From Lachnospiraceae bacterium (GTDB taxonomy: Bacteria; Bacillota; Clostridia; Lachnospirales; Lachnospiraceae), in NCBI GenBank assembly GCA_017472605.1, contig JAFUPV010000007.1, forward strand, positions 1 through 43,328: a DNA stretch of 43,328 bases, given 5' to 3'. A program made the position numbers and the translations under genes. A model generated the notes under the pieces. That model saw nothing but the letters and a program-made list of their open reading frames with translations. It searched no databases and was not told the origin of the DNA. This document shows positions 2,738-33,285 of this stretch, piece after piece. Position 1 is the stretch's first letter, and every line of letters begins with the position of its first letter.

Positions 2738-3688
2738 TCAGTGCCGTTCCTGCAGCATCCGGTAAATCATTTCCACATCGTAGTCCGGCGCACATTCCTT
2801 TGCTGCGGCAATGATGTCAGCAATTTCCTGTGGTTCTGTTTCCAGCGCATCTGCAATCGCTTCCAAGGAGTCACCGCGGGCAAGCTTGCGGCAGCAAAGG
2901 GAGATTTTTCCTAATAACAGTCCTTTTTCGATTCCATCTTCCATTGCTTCTTCTCTCTGTACCTCAATATCTGTCTTATAGTCATATTCAGCAATCAGCA
3001 TATTTCTCACCTCACTTGCCTTTCTGTCTAAATATTCTTTTAGTATGTTCTGCTCCATGCACTGTGCAATTGCTTTGCGGATCGGATCCGGTTCGCCATT
3101 GTTTCTGTGATTCCGCACACATTCCACAAAAAGGAAATACTCACGTAAAACAGGGCACTTTTCAAGGATCGGGTGTTTCTTTTCCGGATTGATGTTGATG
3201 ATCTTCACCTTCAGCTCCAGCGCCGCATCCTCTCCCTTTATTTTGTAGGAATCCGACAGCTTTAATACCTGTTCCAGCGGATAATCTTCGATTCCGTTAT
3301 AGAAAACATAAAATTCCGGAGCGGGAATTTGTGCCAGCTTTTTCGAATAACGTTTCCGAACCGGCACAATCTGCTCGTAGGCTCTGCCGGAGTACAGAAG
3401 CGCGCGAAGACACATGTTGGGGTTCACGGTGCTCTGATGCTCTGCGAAGAGCATAAATTTGTTCTGGACATGAAAGGAGATATCGTTTTTGAAATTCATG
3501 TACAGAATCTGTTCAACTTTGATCCGGTCAATCTGGATGCTGTCTCTGGCGTAATTTGTGTCGTGAAGTGCGTTGAAGAGGGAGAGTTCATTGTCGTAAG
3601 CGGTACAGTCGGAGAAGAAAAGATCAACAAAGACGCTGTCCTTATACTCACGATTTTCTCTGGAGGTATCAGTTGCTTCATAGTCCAT
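2738..3688 (-). CDS. Rpn-family nuclease / putative transposase (PD-(D/E)XK)
   Basis: A 316-residue protein of the Rpn (recombination-promoting nuclease, formerly YhgA-like transposase) type. Near the N terminus KDSVFVDLFF matches the family's first conserved segment. The core FMLFAEHQS with a following RALLYSGRAYEQ has the ExQ-type catalytic strand and helix of this restriction-like fold. The last 80 residues are the usual charged tail with a helix reading AMEDGIEKG. Family members such as RpnA cleave DNA and promote RecA-independent recombination. ATG 3688 is preceded on the reverse strand by AAAGGCGG at a fitting distance. The gene is convergent with the MerR gene (12 bases apart) and has its own promoter, with a tandem repeat array as leader. 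Despite the transposase name there are no inverted terminal repeats. Confidence 0.85.
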   Translation of the reverse strand: MDYEATDTSRENREYKDSVFVDLFFSDCTAYDNELSLFNALHDTNYARDSIQIDRIKVEQILYMNFKNDISFHVQNKFMLFAEHQSTVNPNMCLRALLYSGRAYEQIVPVRKRYSKKLAQIPAPEFYVFYNGIEDYPLEQVLKLSDSYKIKGEDAALELKVKIININPEKKHPILEKCPVLREYFLFVECVRNHRNNGEPDPIRKAIAQCMEQNILKEYLDRKASEVRNMLIAEYDYKTDIEVQREEAMEDGIEKGLLLGKISLCCRKLARGDSLEAIADALETEPQEIADIIAAAKECAPDYDVEMIYRMLQERH

Positions 3689-3755: not shown

Positions 3756-3886
3756 GTTCGCCATATGAGTGTGCAGGCACCCTCGCACGACTCACTGTTT
3801 ACACACATCCAGAACTGCGTTCTGGATCGTGACGTTCGTCGTATGAGTGTGCAAGCACCCTCGCACGACTCACTGTTTACACGAAC
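3756..3886 (-). repeat. Tandem 78-bp structured repeat in leader of the Rpn gene
   Basis: Read on the reverse strand, one full unit (about 3808-3885) and one partial unit (3756-3807) repeat with a 78-bp period, as seen from CACTGTTT at 3793 and again at 3871. Each has a GTGC...GCAC hairpin extended by GAGT...ACTC, and the full unit has a perfect 9-bp hairpin (ATCCAGAAC, loop TGC, 3807-3827). It is homologous to the array at 32568-32772. Confidence 0.85.
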
Positions 3887-3915
3887 ATTATACCACAGAG
3901 GAAAGGGGAAGGCAA
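3887..3915 (-). promoter_or_regulatory. Promoter of the Rpn gene
   Basis: On the reverse strand TTGCCT (3915-3910), 17 bp, then TATAAT (3892-3887). The repeat array begins directly after the -10 box, so the repeats are transcribed as 5' leader of about 190 bases. Confidence 0.7.
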
Positions 3916-16659: not shown

Positions 16660-19600
16660 ATGTTTTATCGGAAAAGTAAATGGTTGAGTTTGATACTGAC
16701 TCTGAGTCTGATACTGACATCCATTTCGTTTCCGGTGCCGATTTCGGCGGAGAATGCCGGGACAGAGGAGACTTATGAGGCATCGGTGACGATCGGTGAG
16801 GAAACCCAATCGTACAAAACGTTCGAAGAAGCGTGGGCGGCGGCAGTTGCCGATGACCAGACATTAAATGCGTTGATTACGTTGCTTTCAGATGTGGTGT
16901 TTGAAGCGAATTTATCGGATTACGATACGCATACAAATGCGACAGTAACGGTAGATCTCGATGGGCATAAATTAACAGGAGGAACACTTGGAACAAATGC
17001 CCGGTCACTGACGCTTCAAAATGGAATTGCAGACGCTGATCTATATAATCCTGCTACGGATGGTAATGCTGTATTGACTCTGAATTCGGTTACTGTAACG
17101 GCAGAAAATCTTGACTGGTATGCCGGATGTGCAGGCAGAAAAAAAGGCGGAGTGTATCTGGAGAATGCCAGTGTTTTGAATATTACCGGAAGACTTGCCA
17201 TTCAACGGATTTTGCTGGATAAGACTTGTAAGATTGAATTAAAGAACGCAGGACAGTGGAATTATGGAGATGAGGATGTGGATTTGTCTGCACTGACAGA
17301 TTACCTGCCTGAGGGGTATTCTATCGGCAAGGGTACCGACTCAGAAGGAAATCTGCTGGAAGGAACTCTGATATGCAAACCGGATGGGACATGTGCTGAG
17401 AATGTGATTTTGAAATACCGCAAGAGCCTTTCCGATCTTGATAAGGCGGGTGGAATCACGCTTGCTCTCTCCCATACCTACACCGGCAGCGCGATTACGC
17501 CTGCTGTCACAGTGACAGATACAGCGGCAAATTATACCCTTGTTCCGAGCAGCAATGGGCTGAGCACTGATTACAAGGTGGCTTACGATAACAATGTTAA
17601 TGTCGGTGACAATACCGCAACGGTAACGATTACAGCAACCGGAACAAACGGAGATCCAAATTATGCGAACTACAAAGGCAGTGCGACAAAAACGTTCTCA
17701 ATCACGCCTGCGTCGAATTCAATTATAAATGTGAACTATCCGGTCAGCTATACTTACACCGCGTCTCCCATCCAGACACCTTTGACAGCGAATTTCACGT
17801 CCGCGTCCGGCGGTGAGCTGTCCTTTGTCTGGCTGGATGCAAATGGAAATCAGCTGAATGCCAATTCTGCTCCGTCCGCAGTTGGCAATTATACACTGCA
17901 GGTGAATGCAGCCGCGGCAGGAAATTATGGGGCGGGTTGTGCCAAGTTTCCGGTGACTATTTCCTGGCTGGAAGCGGATGCGCCGGTAACGGTGATTGGA
18001 ACAACTGCAGATGCGTCGAGCGGGTACACGGCAGCGACGGGCGTGTACACTTCAGTAGACGGTCTGAGGGTTGGAAATGGTTTCAAGATTTCAACGGATG
18101 ATAAACCGGAAAACTTTTTGATCTCCTGTTACTGGGATACGGAGACAACATCCGGAACTTATACAAAAACGTATTATCTGATGAATGAAAATGGCGAGAT
18201 TACCGGACCAAAAACAATTTCATATGTCATTGACAATCCGGCAACGCTCATCCTTACATTATGTGGTTTCGGAGATAGTGGGGAATTGTGTGACTGGAGC
18301 GATGAACTGGTTTTGGCCTTTGCGGATGGTGTTACGCTGAATGTATTAAGCGGCGACCGGGAGAGTGAATCTCTGAAGGTGGATTATCAGATCGGTGCGC
18401 TGAATGCGGCTGCATGTGATCCGGGCGGAAGCTGGGTACCTCTTACTCAGACTGATTTCTATCCTGCGTCTTCTTCCAGCCCGTTGAACGGGTGGAGCTT
18501 TTCCGCTCCTATCACGCTAAGTGGTTGGACTGGAAGCGCAGATGGGACTGCCACTGTGTGGGTTCGTGTAACTGATTCTGCAGGAAATCAGACGGTGAAA
18601 TGTTTTCATACACTGCTGTATGCTTCGCCGATATTGAAATCAGAGATTTTTTATACAAAGCAGCTCACAGACGAAACCAGCGTGATCAGCCTGGGAACGC
18701 TGAATAATGGAACGAAAGCAACTGATCTGTACCTGATAACGGAGAATGGCAGCGAGGATGCGATTCCCTACAAGGTGGAAGACGATAATACCGTGACTGT
18801 TGCTTCCAGTGTATTGAATCAATATCCTTCAGGTAAGTATACGCTGAAGCTGTATGTAAAACCAGCCGTATCGGAATCCATTGAGGAGCTGCTTGCGGGA
18901 ACGGACTCGCTGTCCCGCACCGTACCGCTGACAATCAGTACCCAGTCCGGCAGCTGCCCGGTTACGGTTACAGATAAGACATGGGATGGAAATGCGATTG
19001 TACCGAACATTGATACAACACAATACGCAGAGAGTGATCTGAGCATTTCCTATAAGAAATGGGATGAAGAAGCGGGAACATACGAGAAGATAAGTTCAGC
19101 TCCCAGTGACGCAGGCAAATATCAGATCTGCGTCGAAGCCAAAGCAAACGATAACTATGCGGCGGGAAGCTGGACAGATGAATTTTTGATTAAGGCGGCA
19201 GTTTCAAAGCTGACCGTTACGACCAATGCTGCTGTTTTTACTGATTCGGGCACCGGAGTGTGGACATATGGCGATACCGCGCAGATTACCGTTTCTGTTG
19301 GCATCACCCCGACAGGAAGCGGACAGACAGAGGGGCTTGTTCCCTGTCAGGAAGGCCGGGTTGAGCTGTGGTACGGAGAGGAAAAGCTGGATGCAGTGTC
19401 TGTAACGGACGGAAAGGCTGTGCTGTCCATTGACACGACGAAGAAACTCCTGCCGGTGGGAAGCAGCACGCTGCGTGTGGAATATGTGGGAAGTGATTCG
19501 GAGGAAAAACGCAATGTAAACAATAAATCGCAGACGGTGGAGCTGGAGCTTCTGAAAAAGGAACTGACAGTTATTGCAAAACCTGTTGTTCTGACTTATG

Positions 19601-22600
19601 GTGATGCGCTGACTAACGATGGTGTGACCTGGAGCGGATTTGTGGGAACAGATGACGAAGCGACAGCGGGAATCTTTAACGAATCCCTGACCAATCTGAG
19701 TTATGTATCCAATTATACACAGTATGATCCGGTGGAAAGTGAAACGCCGTATACGATTACGCCGACAGGACTGACCAGCGATTATTATGAAATCAGCTGG
19801 CAGCCGGGAACACTGACTGTGAATCCGCTGACGGTAGAACTGGAGTGGGTAAACGGCGGAGCACCTTCCTACACGGGAATTCCCGGTCAGGTGACAGCGA
19901 ACATAACAAATCTGGTAAATGAAGATGAGGTATCGGTTGTTGTAAGCGGCGGTGTGGAAACGGAAGCCGGAACTTACAGCGCATCTGCTGTTTCTCTGAC
20001 GGGAGAGGATGCATCCAACTATGTGCTGCCTCCGCAGGGAAGCGAAAGCCTGACCTACAGCTATTCCATCGATGAGGCAACACCGCAGCTGTCCGTTTCT
20101 TCCAATCAGGAAGACGGCACCTGGACCTATGGCGAGACGATCGTTGTTGATGTAACGGTTTCGCTGGATGGAACACAGGAGCAGGGATCGATTAATACGG
20201 CGCTTGGAATGGTGAGCCTGTATGCGGGTGAGACGCTTCTTGGAACTGCTGAGAGCAGCGAAGGTCTCTTCACATTGGAAATTGATACGACAAAGAAGCA
20301 GCTGGCAGTTGGTACACACGAACTGGAGGTTGTATATTCCGGATCAGGAACAAACATTGCCGGAGCGCAGACAACGCTTCCTGTAACGATTGAAAAGCGC
20401 CCGCTGACTGTGACCGCCGGTAACGCGGCTCTGACCTATGGCGACGCGTTCAGCAAGGCATTGGATCAGATGAGAGTGACCTACAGCGGATTTGCCGGTG
20501 GAGATAATGAAACGACAGCAGGTCTCTTTACCGGAACACTGGGATATTCTTCGGAGTATGATCAGTATGATCCGGTCAAAAACTATCCGATTACAGCGGG
20601 AGGACTGACCAGCGATTATTATGAACTCAGCTGGCAGCCCGGAACGCTGACTGTGAACCCACTGACGGTACAGCTGGAGTGGGTAAACGGCGGAACCATT
20701 TCCTACACAGGAGAGGCAAGCCAGGTAACTGCCAACATAACAAATCTGGTAAATGGAGATGAAGTATCGGTTACCGTAAACGGCGGTACCGAAACCGAAG
20801 CAGGTACTTATACGGTATCCGCAGAGGAACTGACCGGAGAGGATGCAGGCAACTATGTGCTTCCGGACAACGATTCGGAAACGTCCTCCAGCTATTCAAT
20901 TGTTCAGACAACGCCGGAACTGACAGCCAATATCACAGGCGTCTGCGAATATGGAAACGTGATTACCATATCTGCAGAGGTTGTGCTTGGTCAGACAGCG
21001 GATGGCGCAAAGATCGGCGCGAAGTCCGGTACGGTTGAACTGTATGAGGGAACGAATCTTCTTGGAACGTTCGAAAGTCTGGGCAATGGCGCATACAGTC
21101 TGGAGATTGATACCGCGAAGAAGCTTCTGACAGGGGGCGAACATGTGCTGACGGTTGTATATTCCGGCGCAGGGGACAATGTGGCAAAGGCGGAAACCAC
21201 CCTGAACCTTTCCCTTGCAAAGCGTGCGCTGACGATAACGGCGGAGGATGTTACCGTTATCTACGGAGATCCGCTGACCAGCAAAGGCGTTTCCTATGAC
21301 GGACTGCTGGAGGCAGATGCTTCCGATGAGGCAGCATGGAGTGCCGGAGAATTAACCTATACCTGGAGCTATGTGCCGGGAGAAAGTACGGTTGGAGAGT
21401 ATTCGATCACGGCGAGCGGTTTGTCCAGTGATTACTATGAGATCAGTTATGAACCGGCCGTATATACGGTGAATCCGCGTGAGGTGGTTCTGAGATGGAT
21501 GGGTACAGAGACAAGAACCTATAATGCTCTGCCTTCCGGTGTATTTGCGGAGGTTGCAAACCAGGCAGAATACGATTGGATCACTGTCGTTGTGGAAGGC
21601 GGAGATCAGACCCATGTTGGTGTTCACACGGCAGAGGCGGTGCAGCTGGAAGGAACCAACAGTTCCTGCTACTACATCGGCGAAGCGGATTCCTGTTCCT
21701 ATGAAATTGTGGCAGCAGAATCGTCCATGTCTGTTGAGGTCAATTCCGGTACGAATACCTGTACATATGGAGGTCGTGTTGATGTTGCAGTCAGTGTCAA
21801 CTACGATTCCGAAGGAAACGGACAGGCAGAAGACATGCTGCCATGCGAGGAAGGTGTGGTGGAACTGTGGTACAAAGATACGCTTCTGGACAGCGCAGAG
21901 GTGGCAGGCGGTGTTGCTGTGCTTTGCTATGACACAGCAGAACGGCAGATGACTGCAGGCGAGCATGAATGGAAGGTAATCTATGTGGGAACCGACAATA
22001 TTACAGGTACTTCCCGGACGGAACCGATCACGATTCAGAAGCAGAAACTGACGGTTATCGCAGAGGATGTTGTGCTGACCTATGGCGATGAACTGACAGG
22101 AAACGGTGTTCGCTACAACGGATTCCTGGAAGGAGAGGATGAGACAACGGAAGGTCTTCTCGGCGGAACGCTGGGTTATACTTCCAATTATTCCCGGTAT
22201 GATTCCATTGGCACCTATGAGATCACACCAATGGGACTGACCAGCGACTATTACGAGATTACATATGAATCCGGCTCGCTGCTCGTAAATCCGCTGGTGG
22301 CTGAGCTGGAATGGAAGAACGCAGAAACACGTGCGTATGACGGAACAGAATCCAACGTGACATCCGTTGTGGCAAACGCGCAGAACGGGGACGAGCTTAC
22401 CGTTGTTGTGGAGCTCGGTACGAACATGTTCGTGGGAACACATACCGCATATGCGTCCAGTATCGAAGGTCCGCAGGCTGATAATTACAGTCTGCCCGAT
22501 GTTATAACTCAGGATTACACGATTGTGCGTGGTAAGTCGGCATTTGTTTCAATTTTGAAAGACAGCGAAAGCTATGTTTATGGAGATACCATTTGTGTAA

Positions 22601-23925
22601 CTGCTCAGGTGACAGCGACAGGTGAAGCTGCTGAGGAAGAAGTTGTAGTAACGGCTGGTGTAGAGGAAGATATGGAAACGTTTGTTGAGGATCAGATGAT
22701 TCTTTACTACGGAGAAACCCGGATTGGTACTCCGGTAAGTGTGACAGATGGTCAGGCAGAGATGAACTATGATACAATCGCTAAAGTTCTTACGGTTGGA
22801 GAGCATGTTCTTACTGTTGTCTATACCGGCAACAGCGACTTGAAGGGAACAACTGGAACGATTACGGTTGTGGTACAGCCGAAGCCGGTTACTGTGGCAG
22901 CAGATGATCAGAATAAGCAGGAAGGCGAAGCGGATCCAGAGCTGACATGGCGTGAGTACGATGTCGTGGAAGGCGACGAGCTGGCAGTTTCCATTTCCCG
23001 TGAGGAGGGAGAGGAAGTCGGTGAATATGCGATCATCGTCAGTGAGGAAGAAGGAGAGAATCCGTTCTATGACATTACATTTGAGAATGGTATCCTGACC
23101 ATTGAAGAGGTGGAAACTACTGAGGAAGAGACGGAAGAAGTGACTACCGAAGTAGTAACACCGGAAGAGACGCCGGAAGAAACAACCGAGGAAGTGACAA
23201 CGGAGGAAGTAACGACGGAGGAAGTGACAACCGAGGAAGTAACGACGGAAGAAGTGACAACCGAGGAAGTAACAACCGAGGAAGTAACAACTGAGGAAGA
23301 GACGACTGAGGAAGAGACGACGGAAGAAGTAACGACCGAAGAAGAGACGACTGAGGAAGTAACAATCGAGGAAGAGACGACGGAGGAAGTAACAACCGAG
23401 GAAGAGACGACGGAAGAAGTAACGACCGAAGAAGAGACGACTGAGGAAGTAACAATCGAGGAAGAGACGACGGAGGAAGTAACAACCGAGGAAGAGACGA
23501 CTGAGGAAGAAACGACTGAGGAAGTAACAACCGAGGAAGAGACGTCTGAGGAAGTAACAACCGAGGAAGAGACGACTGAGAAAGTAACGACCGAAGAGGC
23601 AACCACCGAGGAAGTAACGACCGAAGAGGCGACAACTGCGGAAGCAACCACTGCGGAGGCGACAACTGCGGAAGCAACCACTGCGGAGGCGACAACTGCG
23701 GAAGCAACCACCGCGGAAACGACAACTGCGGAAGCTGCCACAGAGGGAACAACTGCTGCAGCGGAGACAACTACCGCCGCAGAGCGGATGGAAGAGCCGA
23801 TTCTCGGAATTGAGGATCATGCCGGTGCTGTGGGAATGTTCCTGCTGGCATCAGGCGGACTTCTTCTTGCAGTGGCATTCTGGCTGCAGATGACCATGGG
23901 AAGAAGAAAAGAAGAGAACGAATAA
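16660..23925 (+). CDS. Giant modular surface protein with Ig-like and MBG-type repeats
   Basis: A 2421-residue exported protein. The signal peptide (KSKWLSLILTLSLILTSISF, cut after ISA) is followed by about 220 residues I cannot place, then several Ig-like segments. From residue about 847 five modules of about 270 residues repeat, starting near residues 847, 1143, 1420, 1689 and 1961. Each has an Ig-like half (TWTYGETIVV..., ending KRPLTVTA) and an MBG/YDG-like half (LTYGDAL, GLTSDYYEISWQPGTLTVNPL). A short last MBG domain leads to a Thr/Glu tract (about 2152-2377), then a membrane helix from about 2389 and GRRKEENE. I see no LPXTG. This is a stalk-like adhesin or wall protein; its ligand is unknown. 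Confidence 0.9.
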   Translation: MFYRKSKWLSLILTLSLILTSISFPVPISAENAGTEETYEASVTIGEETQSYKTFEEAWAAAVADDQTLNALITLLSDVVFEANLSDYDTHTNATVTVDLDGHKLTGGTLGTNARSLTLQNGIADADLYNPATDGNAVLTLNSVTVTAENLDWYAGCAGRKKGGVYLENASVLNITGRLAIQRILLDKTCKIELKNAGQWNYGDEDVDLSALTDYLPEGYSIGKGTDSEGNLLEGTLICKPDGTCAENVILKYRKSLSDLDKAGGITLALSHTYTGSAITPAVTVTDTAANYTLVPSSNGLSTDYKVAYDNNVNVGDNTATVTITATGTNGDPNYANYKGSATKTFSITPASNSIINVNYPVSYTYTASPIQTPLTANFTSASGGELSFVWLDANGNQLNANSAPSAVGNYTLQVNAAAAGNYGAGCAKFPVTISWLEADAPVTVIGTTADASSGYTAATGVYTSVDGLRVGNGFKISTDDKPENFLISCYWDTETTSGTYTKTYYLMNENGEITGPKTISYVIDNPATLILTLCGFGDSGELCDWSDELVLAFADGVTLNVLSGDRESESLKVDYQIGALNAAACDPGGSWVPLTQTDFYPASSSSPLNGWSFSAPITLSGWTGSADGTATVWVRVTDSAGNQTVKCFHTLLYASPILKSEIFYTKQLTDETSVISLGTLNNGTKATDLYLITENGSEDAIPYKVEDDNTVTVASSVLNQYPSGKYTLKLYVKPAVSESIEELLAGTDSLSRTVPLTISTQSGSCPVTVTDKTWDGNAIVPNIDTTQYAESDLSISYKKWDEEAGTYEKISSAPSDAGKYQICVEAKANDNYAAGSWTDEFLIKAAVSKLTVTTNAAVFTDSGTGVWTYGDTAQITVSVGITPTGSGQTEGLVPCQEGRVELWYGEEKLDAVSVTDGKAVLSIDTTKKLLPVGSSTLRVEYVGSDSEEKRNVNNKSQTVELELLKKELTVIAKPVVLTYGDALTNDGVTWSGFVGTDDEATAGIFNESLTNLSYVSNYTQYDPVESETPYTITPTGLTSDYYEISWQPGTLTVNPLTVELEWVNGGAPSYTGIPGQVTANITNLVNEDEVSVVVSGGVETEAGTYSASAVSLTGEDASNYVLPPQGSESLTYSYSIDEATPQLSVSSNQEDGTWTYGETIVVDVTVSLDGTQEQGSINTALGMVSLYAGETLLGTAESSEGLFTLEIDTTKKQLAVGTHELEVVYSGSGTNIAGAQTTLPVTIEKRPLTVTAGNAALTYGDAFSKALDQMRVTYSGFAGGDNETTAGLFTGTLGYSSEYDQYDPVKNYPITAGGLTSDYYELSWQPGTLTVNPLTVQLEWVNGGTISYTGEASQVTANITNLVNGDEVSVTVNGGTETEAGTYTVSAEELTGEDAGNYVLPDNDSETSSSYSIVQTTPELTANITGVCEYGNVITISAEVVLGQTADGAKIGAKSGTVELYEGTNLLGTFESLGNGAYSLEIDTAKKLLTGGEHVLTVVYSGAGDNVAKAETTLNLSLAKRALTITAEDVTVIYGDPLTSKGVSYDGLLEADASDEAAWSAGELTYTWSYVPGESTVGEYSITASGLSSDYYEISYEPAVYTVNPREVVLRWMGTETRTYNALPSGVFAEVANQAEYDWITVVVEGGDQTHVGVHTAEAVQLEGTNSSCYYIGEADSCSYEIVAAESSMSVEVNSGTNTCTYGGRVDVAVSVNYDSEGNGQAEDMLPCEEGVVELWYKDTLLDSAEVAGGVAVLCYDTAERQMTAGEHEWKVIYVGTDNITGTSRTEPITIQKQKLTVIAEDVVLTYGDELTGNGVRYNGFLEGEDETTEGLLGGTLGYTSNYSRYDSIGTYEITPMGLTSDYYEITYESGSLLVNPLVAELEWKNAETRAYDGTESNVTSVVANAQNGDELTVVVELGTNMFVGTHTAYASSIEGPQADNYSLPDVITQDYTIVRGKSAFVSILKDSESYVYGDTICVTAQVTATGEAAEEEVVVTAGVEEDMETFVEDQMILYYGETRIGTPVSVTDGQAEMNYDTIAKVLTVGEHVLTVVYTGNSDLKGTTGTITVVVQPKPVTVAADDQNKQEGEADPELTWREYDVVEGDELAVSISREEGEEVGEYAIIVSEEEGENPFYDITFENGILTIEEVETTEEETEEVTTEVVTPEETPEETTEEVTTEEVTTEEVTTEEVTTEEVTTEEVTTEEVTTEEETTEEETTEEVTTEEETTEEVTIEEETTEEVTTEEETTEEVTTEEETTEEVTIEEETTEEVTTEEETTEEETTEEVTTEEETSEEVTTEEETTEKVTTEEATTEEVTTEEATTAEATTAEATTAEATTAEATTAEATTAETTTAEAATEGTTAAAETTTAAERMEEPILGIEDHAGAVGMFLLASGGLLLAVAFWLQMTMGRRKEENE
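19200..22900 (+). repeat. Five ~820-bp coding modules in the surface protein gene
   Basis: Homologous modules begin near 19200, 20088, 20918, 21724 and 22540. The second and third MBG halves are the most alike (both contain GLTSDYYE, SWQPGTLTVNPLTV and LEWVNGG), indicating recent duplication. Confidence 0.85.
23113..23780 (+). repeat. Low-complexity Thr/Glu then Thr/Ala repeat tract
   Basis: About 220 codons built from TTEEV and TTEEE pentapeptides (15-bp units, some 30- and 60-bp higher-order blocks), turning near 23625 into TTAEA units. The period is a multiple of three, so length changes would keep the frame. Long open frames on the opposite strand are by-products of this bias. Confidence 0.95.
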
Positions 23926-32450: not shown

Positions 32451-32497
32451 AAAATCGCTGTATCATAGTGGAGAGCGCTGTGGTATGGCGATTTTTT
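32451..32497 (+). terminator. Rho-independent terminator of the ABC operon
   Basis: AAAATCGC (32451-32458) pairs with GCGATTTT, and the inner arms pair by wobble and Watson-Crick bases; six T residues follow. Confidence 0.75.
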
Positions 32498-32536: not shown

Positions 32537-32565
32537 TTTACACCACCATCAAAATAGGGTATAAT
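32537..32565 (+). promoter_or_regulatory. Promoter of the P-loop kinase gene
   Basis: TTTACA (32537-32542), 17 bp, TATAAT (32560-32565). The repeat array starts three bases further on, so the leader consists almost wholly of repeats. Confidence 0.85.
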
Positions 32566-32567
32566 GT

Positions 32568-32772
32568 GCGGGAAGCAGAGAGCCGCGCGAGGGCGCTTGC
32601 GCACTCATGCGGCGAACGCCACGATCCGGAACGTAGTTCCGGTTGCGGGAAGCAGAGAGCCGCGCGAGGGCGCTTGCGCACTCATGCGGCGAACGCCACG
32701 ATCCGGAACGTAGTTCCGGTTGCGGGAAGCAGAGAGCCGCGCGAGGGCGCTTGCGCACTCATGCGGCGAACG
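32568..32772 (+). repeat. Three tandem copies of the 77-bp structured repeat
   Basis: Units start at 32568, 32645 and 32722 (77-bp period). The first two are identical; the third is cut after GCGGCGAACG, 18 bases before the start codon. Each unit contains GCGC...GCGC around GAGGGCGCTT, and full units also have the hairpin CCGGAAC-GTA-GTTCCGG (32626-32642 in unit 1). The same family lies in opposite orientation at 3756-3886. Confidence 0.95.
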
Positions 32773-32790
32773 GAAAGGAAAAGAATAATC

Positions 32791-33285
32791 ATGATCATTT
32801 TAATTTGTGGAAAAATCTGCAGCGGAAAAACATGGTACACAAATCAGCTTCTGAAAACACATCGTGCCATCTGCTTATCCTGTGATGAGCTGATGCTGAC
32901 GCTGAACAGCAGCGGTCTGTTTGGCGACAAACATGATGAGATTGCATCCAGAGTGCAGCAGTATCTTCTGAAGAAAGCGGAGGAGCTGACAGCGCTGGAT
33001 GTGGATGTAATCCTTGAGTGGGGATTCTGGACAAGAGAAGGAAGAAAGCAGATGAGGGAATATTTTCAGGAGAAAGGAATTCCCTGTCAGTGGCATTATC
33101 TTGACATCAGTGAGGAAGACTGGATGGCGAATATTGAGCAGCGGAATGAGGAAATTCTGGCTGGAAGAACCGATGCTTATTTCATGGATGAAGGGCTGAT
33201 GGAGAAGCTGAAACGCCTGTTTGAAGAACCGGACAGGGACGAGATGGATGTCTGGTATCCGGTCCGCAGAGAGAAGATAAAGTAG
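32791..33285 (+). CDS. P-loop kinase-like ATPase (AAA_33 / zeta-toxin-like)
   Basis: A 164-residue nucleotide-binding protein. Walker A GKICSGKTW lies at residues 7-15 and LSCDELML holds the catalytic or base Asp. VDVILEWGFWTREGR has the Walker B-like strand and an Arg-rich lid follows. It resembles AAA_33 kinases (phosphotransferases for small molecules or nucleotides, including zeta-like proteins); the substrate is unknown. The frame is open further upstream through the repeats, but AAAGGA is 10 bases before ATG 32791 and the protein fold begins there. It has its own promoter with the 77-bp repeat array as leader. Confidence 0.85.
   Translation: MIILICGKICSGKTWYTNQLLKTHRAICLSCDELMLTLNSSGLFGDKHDEIASRVQQYLLKKAEELTALDVDVILEWGFWTREGRKQMREYFQEKGIPCQWHYLDISEEDWMANIEQRNEEILAGRTDAYFMDEGLMEKLKRLFEEPDRDEMDVWYPVRREKIK

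Follow-up and report, generated by a model that had tools for sequence, protein, structure and literature searches.

Hairpin arrays at two promoter-like sequences of a Lachnospiraceae bacterium are probably tandem copies of a short mobile repeat

Results

Two arrays of the same hairpin repeat lie in opposite orientation

The window analysed here, a stretch of 43,328 nucleotides from a Lachnospiraceae genome (the own genome below), carries two arrays of hairpin repeats, each between a promoter-like sequence and an open reading frame (ORF). Their features are as follows.

3915-3887, minus strand: promoter-like TTGCCT-17 nt-TATAAT, with TG before the -10 box (consensus scan, 10/12)
3756-3883, minus strand: array of hairpin repeats, layout A-B-A, tandem copies of one unit
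3883-3827, minus strand: hairpin A, first copy (R1 match, 71.3 bits, E 1.2e-13)
3826-3806, minus strand: hairpin B, CCAGAAC gca GTTCTGG (direct reading; unit fold; arms compared across loci)
3805-3749, minus strand: hairpin A, second copy, conserved part ending at 3756 (R1 match, 62.4 bits)
2738-3688, minus strand: downstream ORF, 316 aa, weakly Transposase_31/Rpn-like (PF04754, E 0.035, below its cut-off)
32537-32565, plus strand: promoter-like TTTACA-17-TATAAT (consensus scan, 11/12)
32568-32771, plus strand: array of hairpin repeats, layout A-B-A-B-A, identical 77-bp units
32568-32624, plus strand: hairpin A, copy 1 (R1 match, 76.6 bits)
32625-32644, plus strand: hairpin B, copy 1, CCGGAAC gta GTTCCGG (direct reading; arms compared across loci)
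32645-32701, plus strand: hairpin A, copy 2 (R1 match, 76.6 bits)
32702-32721, plus strand: hairpin B, copy 2 (identical 77-bp unit)
32722-32778, plus strand: hairpin A, copy 3, conserved part ending at 32771 (R1 match, 70.3 bits)
32791-33285, plus strand: downstream gene, P-loop protein, AAA_33 (Pfam, E 2.6e-18 for 32794-33285)

A preliminary description had placed at 3756..3915 the same element as at 32.5 kb, in opposite orientation and just after a TATAAT box, and direct reading of both arrays bore this out. The exchanges that it listed between the arrays, CCGGAAC/GTTCCGG to CCAGAAC/GTTCTGG and GCGC/GCGC to GTGC/GCAC, were both found. Its alignment through the -10 box held for TATAATG only, whereas the spacer and the -35 region looked unrelated by eye, and the promoter scan at the 3.8-kb array returned one promoter against 1.2 expected in shuffles of the region. 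The label of Rpn gene given to the ORF behind that array proved weak, with the Transposase_31 match falling below its cut-off and no NCBIfam match at E 0.1. PADLOC returned no match for the proteins downstream of the two window arrays.

The repeat unit consists of a bulged hairpin A of about 60 nt (~57 nt), with conserved unpaired bases, and a hairpin B of ~20 nt whose sequence is variable and which was self-complementary in the copies compared. A single 3.8-kb unit folded better than its shuffles (z -3.89), and the result was less clear for the 32.5-kb unit (z -1.78, 11/200 shuffles as good). In the lowest-energy fold of the whole 3.8-kb array, the two A copies paired with each other and did not fold separately. 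An open frame of 239 codons (32566-33285) spans the entire 32.5-kb array and runs into the AAA_33 gene; it is probably a chance product of the GC-rich repeat. Elsewhere in the window, at 16660-23925, lies an open frame of 2421 codons. A terminator scan of both array regions found no intrinsic terminator inside either array and one terminator at 32476-32490, upstream of the 32.5-kb promoter. With no intrinsic terminator between promoter and gene at either window array, we rejected an attenuator leader.

The repeat is a discrete element with many copies

The core pattern of hairpin A was present at 34 places in the own genome with three mismatches or fewer, the window's five included, compared to none for the reversed control. 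A covariance model built from 29 copies, for which 150 of the 676 candidates were scored, gave 58 matches there at E 0.01 or better (weakest, E 0.009). A broader model, for which just 13 candidates per genome were scored, detected the repeat at E 1e-4 or better in 175 of 397 Lachnospiraceae genomes. Two of these genomes agree exactly over long stretches with named records, one being Catenibacillus scindens, a Lachnospiraceae, which places the set in that family. The commoner core occurred in at least 120 stretches of named genomes; among the 80 matches listed, most came from named Lachnospiraceae (Dorea, Blautia, Acetatifactor, Lacrimispora, Catenibacillus) and some were titled only 'Eubacteriales', 'Firmicutes' or 'Bacterium'. 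The own-genome core had no match in the genome collection, where the own genome or near genomes may be left out.

Flanks were tabulated for 57 of the 58 own-genome model matches. Copies with the commoner core had a sharp left edge: across 78 left flanks, information did not exceed 0.16 bits and then rose at TTTATT to 1.15-2.0 bits. Their right edge was TTTGACT, with no conservation beyond it in 59 right ends selected by TTTGACT. Visual inspection gave a 5' foot of TTTATT-CCCGCGAG or TATAAT-GT..., and some copies keep the right end yet retain almost no hairpin B. Seven promoter-seated copies of genome G088 were 94% identical inside, compared to 32% and 29% in their 60-bp flanks; one pair had the right flank in common. 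Between rpmA and obg, two genes identified by eye, the element was present in the own genome and absent in both same-genus genomes, where the flanks are too diverged for the absence to count as a base-exact empty site; none of the fetched loci provided such a site. No longer, autonomous copy was recognised by eye among the printed copies. The sharp edges and the near-identical copies at unrelated sites show that the repeat is a discrete element, and it is dispersed and probably mobile.

The repeat occurs in two forms that differ in their upstream hexamer

The T form sits 3' of TTTATT, in the own genome mostly after terminator-like sequence. There, a strict rule, passed by 1.8% of random windows, classed 25 of 37 non-promoter left flanks as terminator-like; a loose rule, passed by 17%, classed 31 as such. 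Some T copies in other genomes lie antisense, just before a start region, as judged by eye.

Both window arrays are of the P form, which has TATAAT at a fixed distance upstream. Nine own-genome loci carried TATAAT or TAAAAT 9-10 nt before a conserved RCAR and a tenth came from the pattern search, so that the ten consist of eight pattern-search loci and two TAAAAT loci; either box stood at the P-form distance from 0.084% of random positions. Over the 397 genomes the P pattern was found at 40 places in 19 genomes (eight places in the own genome), compared to two for the reversed control. Two of these 40 (one in G286, one in G331) are known as matched strings only, and 35 places in 14 genomes were kept after five without the element were dropped. 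For model R2, copies of both forms were taken from the own genome and T copies from other genomes; at E 0.02 or better it recognised 15 of the 22 P loci presented to it but not one of five chance loci. Read in this way, the P form is seated exactly between the putative -10 box and the expected transcription start.

P-type arrays also lie at contig ends of genome G000 (the end of C47, both ends of C49 and the start of C24), and are therefore probably longer than assembled. In G286, a P-type element (L336, about 1531) has a 6S RNA match (1600-1778, 69.6 bits) immediately upstream in the same orientation.

All nine sense ORFs chosen downstream of P copies matched Pfam families. In other genera these were tRNA pseudouridine synthase, class II FBP aldolase, MreB and Tex, and in the own genome a LytTR regulator, FMN reductase, the phosphomethylpyrimidine kinase family, AAA-ATPase_like and an APH-family phosphotransferase. 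In a hand count of 37 P rows, an ORF lay within 400 nt in sense in 33 and divergently in 28, numbers that do not prove orientation.

The 3' end of P copies differed between genomes. TATAAT recurred there at 11 of 20 places in the five genomes with the close P subfamily, all 11 in G088, G124 and G402. The left side was also TATAAT in nine of these, another lay at a contig start, and the last, L365, had a different left flank. The right TATAAT of L365 is thus not a plain copy of the left one, with the proviso that this is a single case whose left flank may have mutated later. In array L366 the motif recurs in each unit in decayed form. No further TATAAT was found within 250 nt of the own-genome P copies (8/8 complete loci); judging from this layout, the first hairpin is the predicted start of transcription in the own genome, where the P array would form the 5' leader of the mRNA.

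Paired changes support the hairpin fold

The preliminary description took its two paired changes as a sign of selection on structure, to be doubted if changes on one side of a stem proved as frequent as compensated ones. In the hairpin B arms, 5 of 49 pairs were changed on both sides and none on one side only; this comparison covered seven of the ten own-genome P loci, the other three having no complete B or an unrelated one. For hairpin A in the own genome, 32 cells (one pair in one copy) showed two-sided change, compared to 12.4 in shuffles, with none of 500 shuffles as high. Further pair types were not above shuffles (212/500 as high). Pairing was intact in 77.5% of own-genome cells and in 58% of those in the outer helix, so broken pairs are not rare and fall chiefly there.

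A broader set of 33 hairpin A copies from five genera, with a structure of 23 pairs, gave 116 two-sided cells against 40.8 in shuffles (0/500 as high). In this set 83.4% of cells pair, and the covariation score was 0.406 compared to 0.184 in shuffles (0/500). Pairs with any two-sided change numbered 15 against 12.3 in shuffles (24/500 as high); for further pair types the numbers were 38 and 38.3 (326/500). Sliding the pair partners lowered every covariation measure, the structure having been chosen on these very sequences, which favours that result. Mismatches in the inner helix were G.T (14) more often than A.C (6). Selection on structure is thus well supported by covariation, while the repeat on which it acts is not confined to the two arrays but dispersed through genomes.

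RAYT and Y1 transposase genes, phages and plasmids show no clear link to the repeat

The own genome, of 95% completeness, had no Y1 transposase or REP-associated tyrosine transposase (RAYT) that reached E 0.001. RAYT genes were present in 29 of 175 repeat-positive and 45 of 222 repeat-negative genomes (Fisher p 0.37) at a score limit near E 1e-12 that was set in this analysis; over the curated cut-off they were present in only 24 of 397. Among 30 Y1 loci from high-copy genomes there was no convincing hairpin A within 1.5 kb, the sole match having E 0.12, and the end hairpins of the IS200-like copies inspected in G009 and G021 were different ones. Both RAYT and Y1 transposases were therefore rejected as the mobiliser, and the search of their loci linked no transposase to the repeat. 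Lachnospiraceae RAYT proteins of 250-261 aa (NF047646) without a nearby hairpin A are encoded at L141:1117-1869 and L142:1450-2235.

Spread by phages or plasmids was likewise rejected: there was no plasmid match and one weak phage record, and viral contigs gave one match for the T core and none for the P core. With almost no copies in phages, plasmids and viral contigs, movement between replicons was not seen. In the IMG/VR scan, L381 (8364-8404) was alone among viral contigs in matching the T core pattern exactly.

Discussion

Resemblance to known repeats and RNAs

The best functional parallel, likened by description, is the pneumococcal BOX repeat. BOX, RUP and SPRITE are composite intergenic stem-loop repeats with tandem inner modules that affect their neighbours and are judged parasitic in the available part of their description (PMC3049150). 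They belong to another bacterial order, and 'TATAAT' is absent from the main text of that paper (PMC3049150).

REP elements share with the repeat their short intergenic hairpins and many copies. An available passage on REPs defines them by a GTAG or GTGG tetranucleotide 0-2 nt 5' of the hairpin (PMC6006769). By eye we saw no conserved GTAG/GTGG at the hairpin foot, GTGG lying near the foot only at C62:85021 of the own genome, and found no RAYT gene flanked by the repeat. The repeat therefore differs from REP elements with RAYT in having no tag and no linked transposase, and in arrays that are direct rather than inverted. CGTC-tagged REPs are also said, in the excerpt available, to be without a dedicated transposase (PMC3733652).

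Among RNA families, Rfam gave no gathering-level match in the window, Clostridiales-1 RNA included, and nothing relevant on 11 loci of the repeat. One P locus, L338 (434-554), matched the whole Clostridiales-1 RNA model (RF01699) with 46.2 bits (E 1.4e-7 to 5.2e-7), below the gathering cut-off of 48 bits. It was the only match in sets of 4 and 20 loci, both of which contain it, and its fold is a longer, multi-helix version. Clostridiales-1 RNA resembles the repeat in its occurrence (Clostridiales and human gut) and in a long hairpin with a GCUUGC loop followed by further hairpins. The available part of the 2010 report tabulates it as probably an RNA and probably not cis-regulatory, and does not mention mobility (PMC2864571). 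Kinship of the two families is possible on this sequence likeness, though not established.

The ends of IS200/IS605 elements combine insertion 3' of a short motif, a hairpin at the end and no clear duplication. The repeat may resemble them in these respects, and differs in that hairpin A was not seen at the end of any Y1 transposase locus inspected. We found no description of the repeat family in the literature searched, the scope of which did not extend to preprints and most subscription papers. A study of thousands of candidate structured RNAs in human microbiomes reportedly exists and could include the family.

Origin of the arrays

We consider it probable that a short, non-coding mobile repeat of Lachnospiraceae, comprising two hairpins, makes up both arrays as tandem copies; its P form is found at promoters. 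The repeat is dispersed, and most of the copies read lie away from -10 boxes; selection may therefore maintain the hairpin fold for mobilisation as single-stranded DNA or RNA instead of a role in gene regulation. The opposite emphasis, a host cis-regulatory RNA in which a tandem structured leader binds a protein or ligand and has spread mainly through its usefulness, seems unlikely to us. It would account for the conserved fold and for P copies between a -10 box and a real gene, as the nine Pfam matches indicate. Most own-genome copies are not such leaders, however, given the terminator-like sequence at 25 of the 37 non-promoter left flanks, and the antisense position of some T copies elsewhere (by eye), the lack of a function common to the downstream genes and the lack of intrinsic terminators within the window arrays also speak against regulation.

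Mobility in itself could come about in more than one way. A REP element moved by a RAYT would explain the many short intergenic hairpins, the preference for one side of a target and the lack of inverted termini, and RAYTs do exist in the family; we regard it as improbable in view of the own genome without RAYT or Y1 at E 0.001, the lack of co-distribution, the single poor hairpin A match at 30 Y1 loci and the missing GTAG tag. Still less probable is a MITE of the classical kind, with a DDE transposase, terminal inverted repeats and a target-site duplication whose sequence would by coincidence be TATAAT. Nine P copies flanked by TATAAT on both sides fit such a duplication, but the sides are unequal in L365, the two sides of T copies differ (TTTATT and TTTGACT), and no terminal inverted repeats were seen by eye (left, TTTATTCCCGCG; right, TTTGACT). 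A chance likeness between two palindromic, GC-rich stretches might have been entertained while only the few copies in the window were visible; the 34 core places against none in the control, and the 175 genomes, refute it and leave it a negligible probability.

For the mobile repeat that we favour, an enzyme acting in trans would recognise single-stranded hairpin A and join the repeat 3' of an A/T-rich hexamer. The P form would use the -10 box of a promoter as its site, and in three other genera would supply a new TATAAT at its 3' end, leaving the downstream gene with a -10 box. The simplest reading of that layout is that the element carries a -10 box at its 3' end and may thereby restore the box split on insertion. 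Any effect of an array on expression is predicted to be secondary. A more specific version, which we put forward tentatively and think doubtful as a whole, is a promoter-homing element that would enter the single-stranded DNA of the open bubble 3' of the -10 box, be transcribed from its first bases onward by the captured promoter and bring a fresh TATAAT at its far end that would keep the host gene on, the T form, which follows terminators in the own genome, being a sister that targets the other end of transcription units.

The two-hairpin repeat represents a large structured-repeat family in a main family of gut bacteria, apparently undescribed in the literature searched. Its P form would change the start points of transcripts and the make-up of their leaders, and the split-and-restore layout makes the target choice of a mobile element directly testable. 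Clostridiales-1 RNA may in turn be recast as part of a mobile family.
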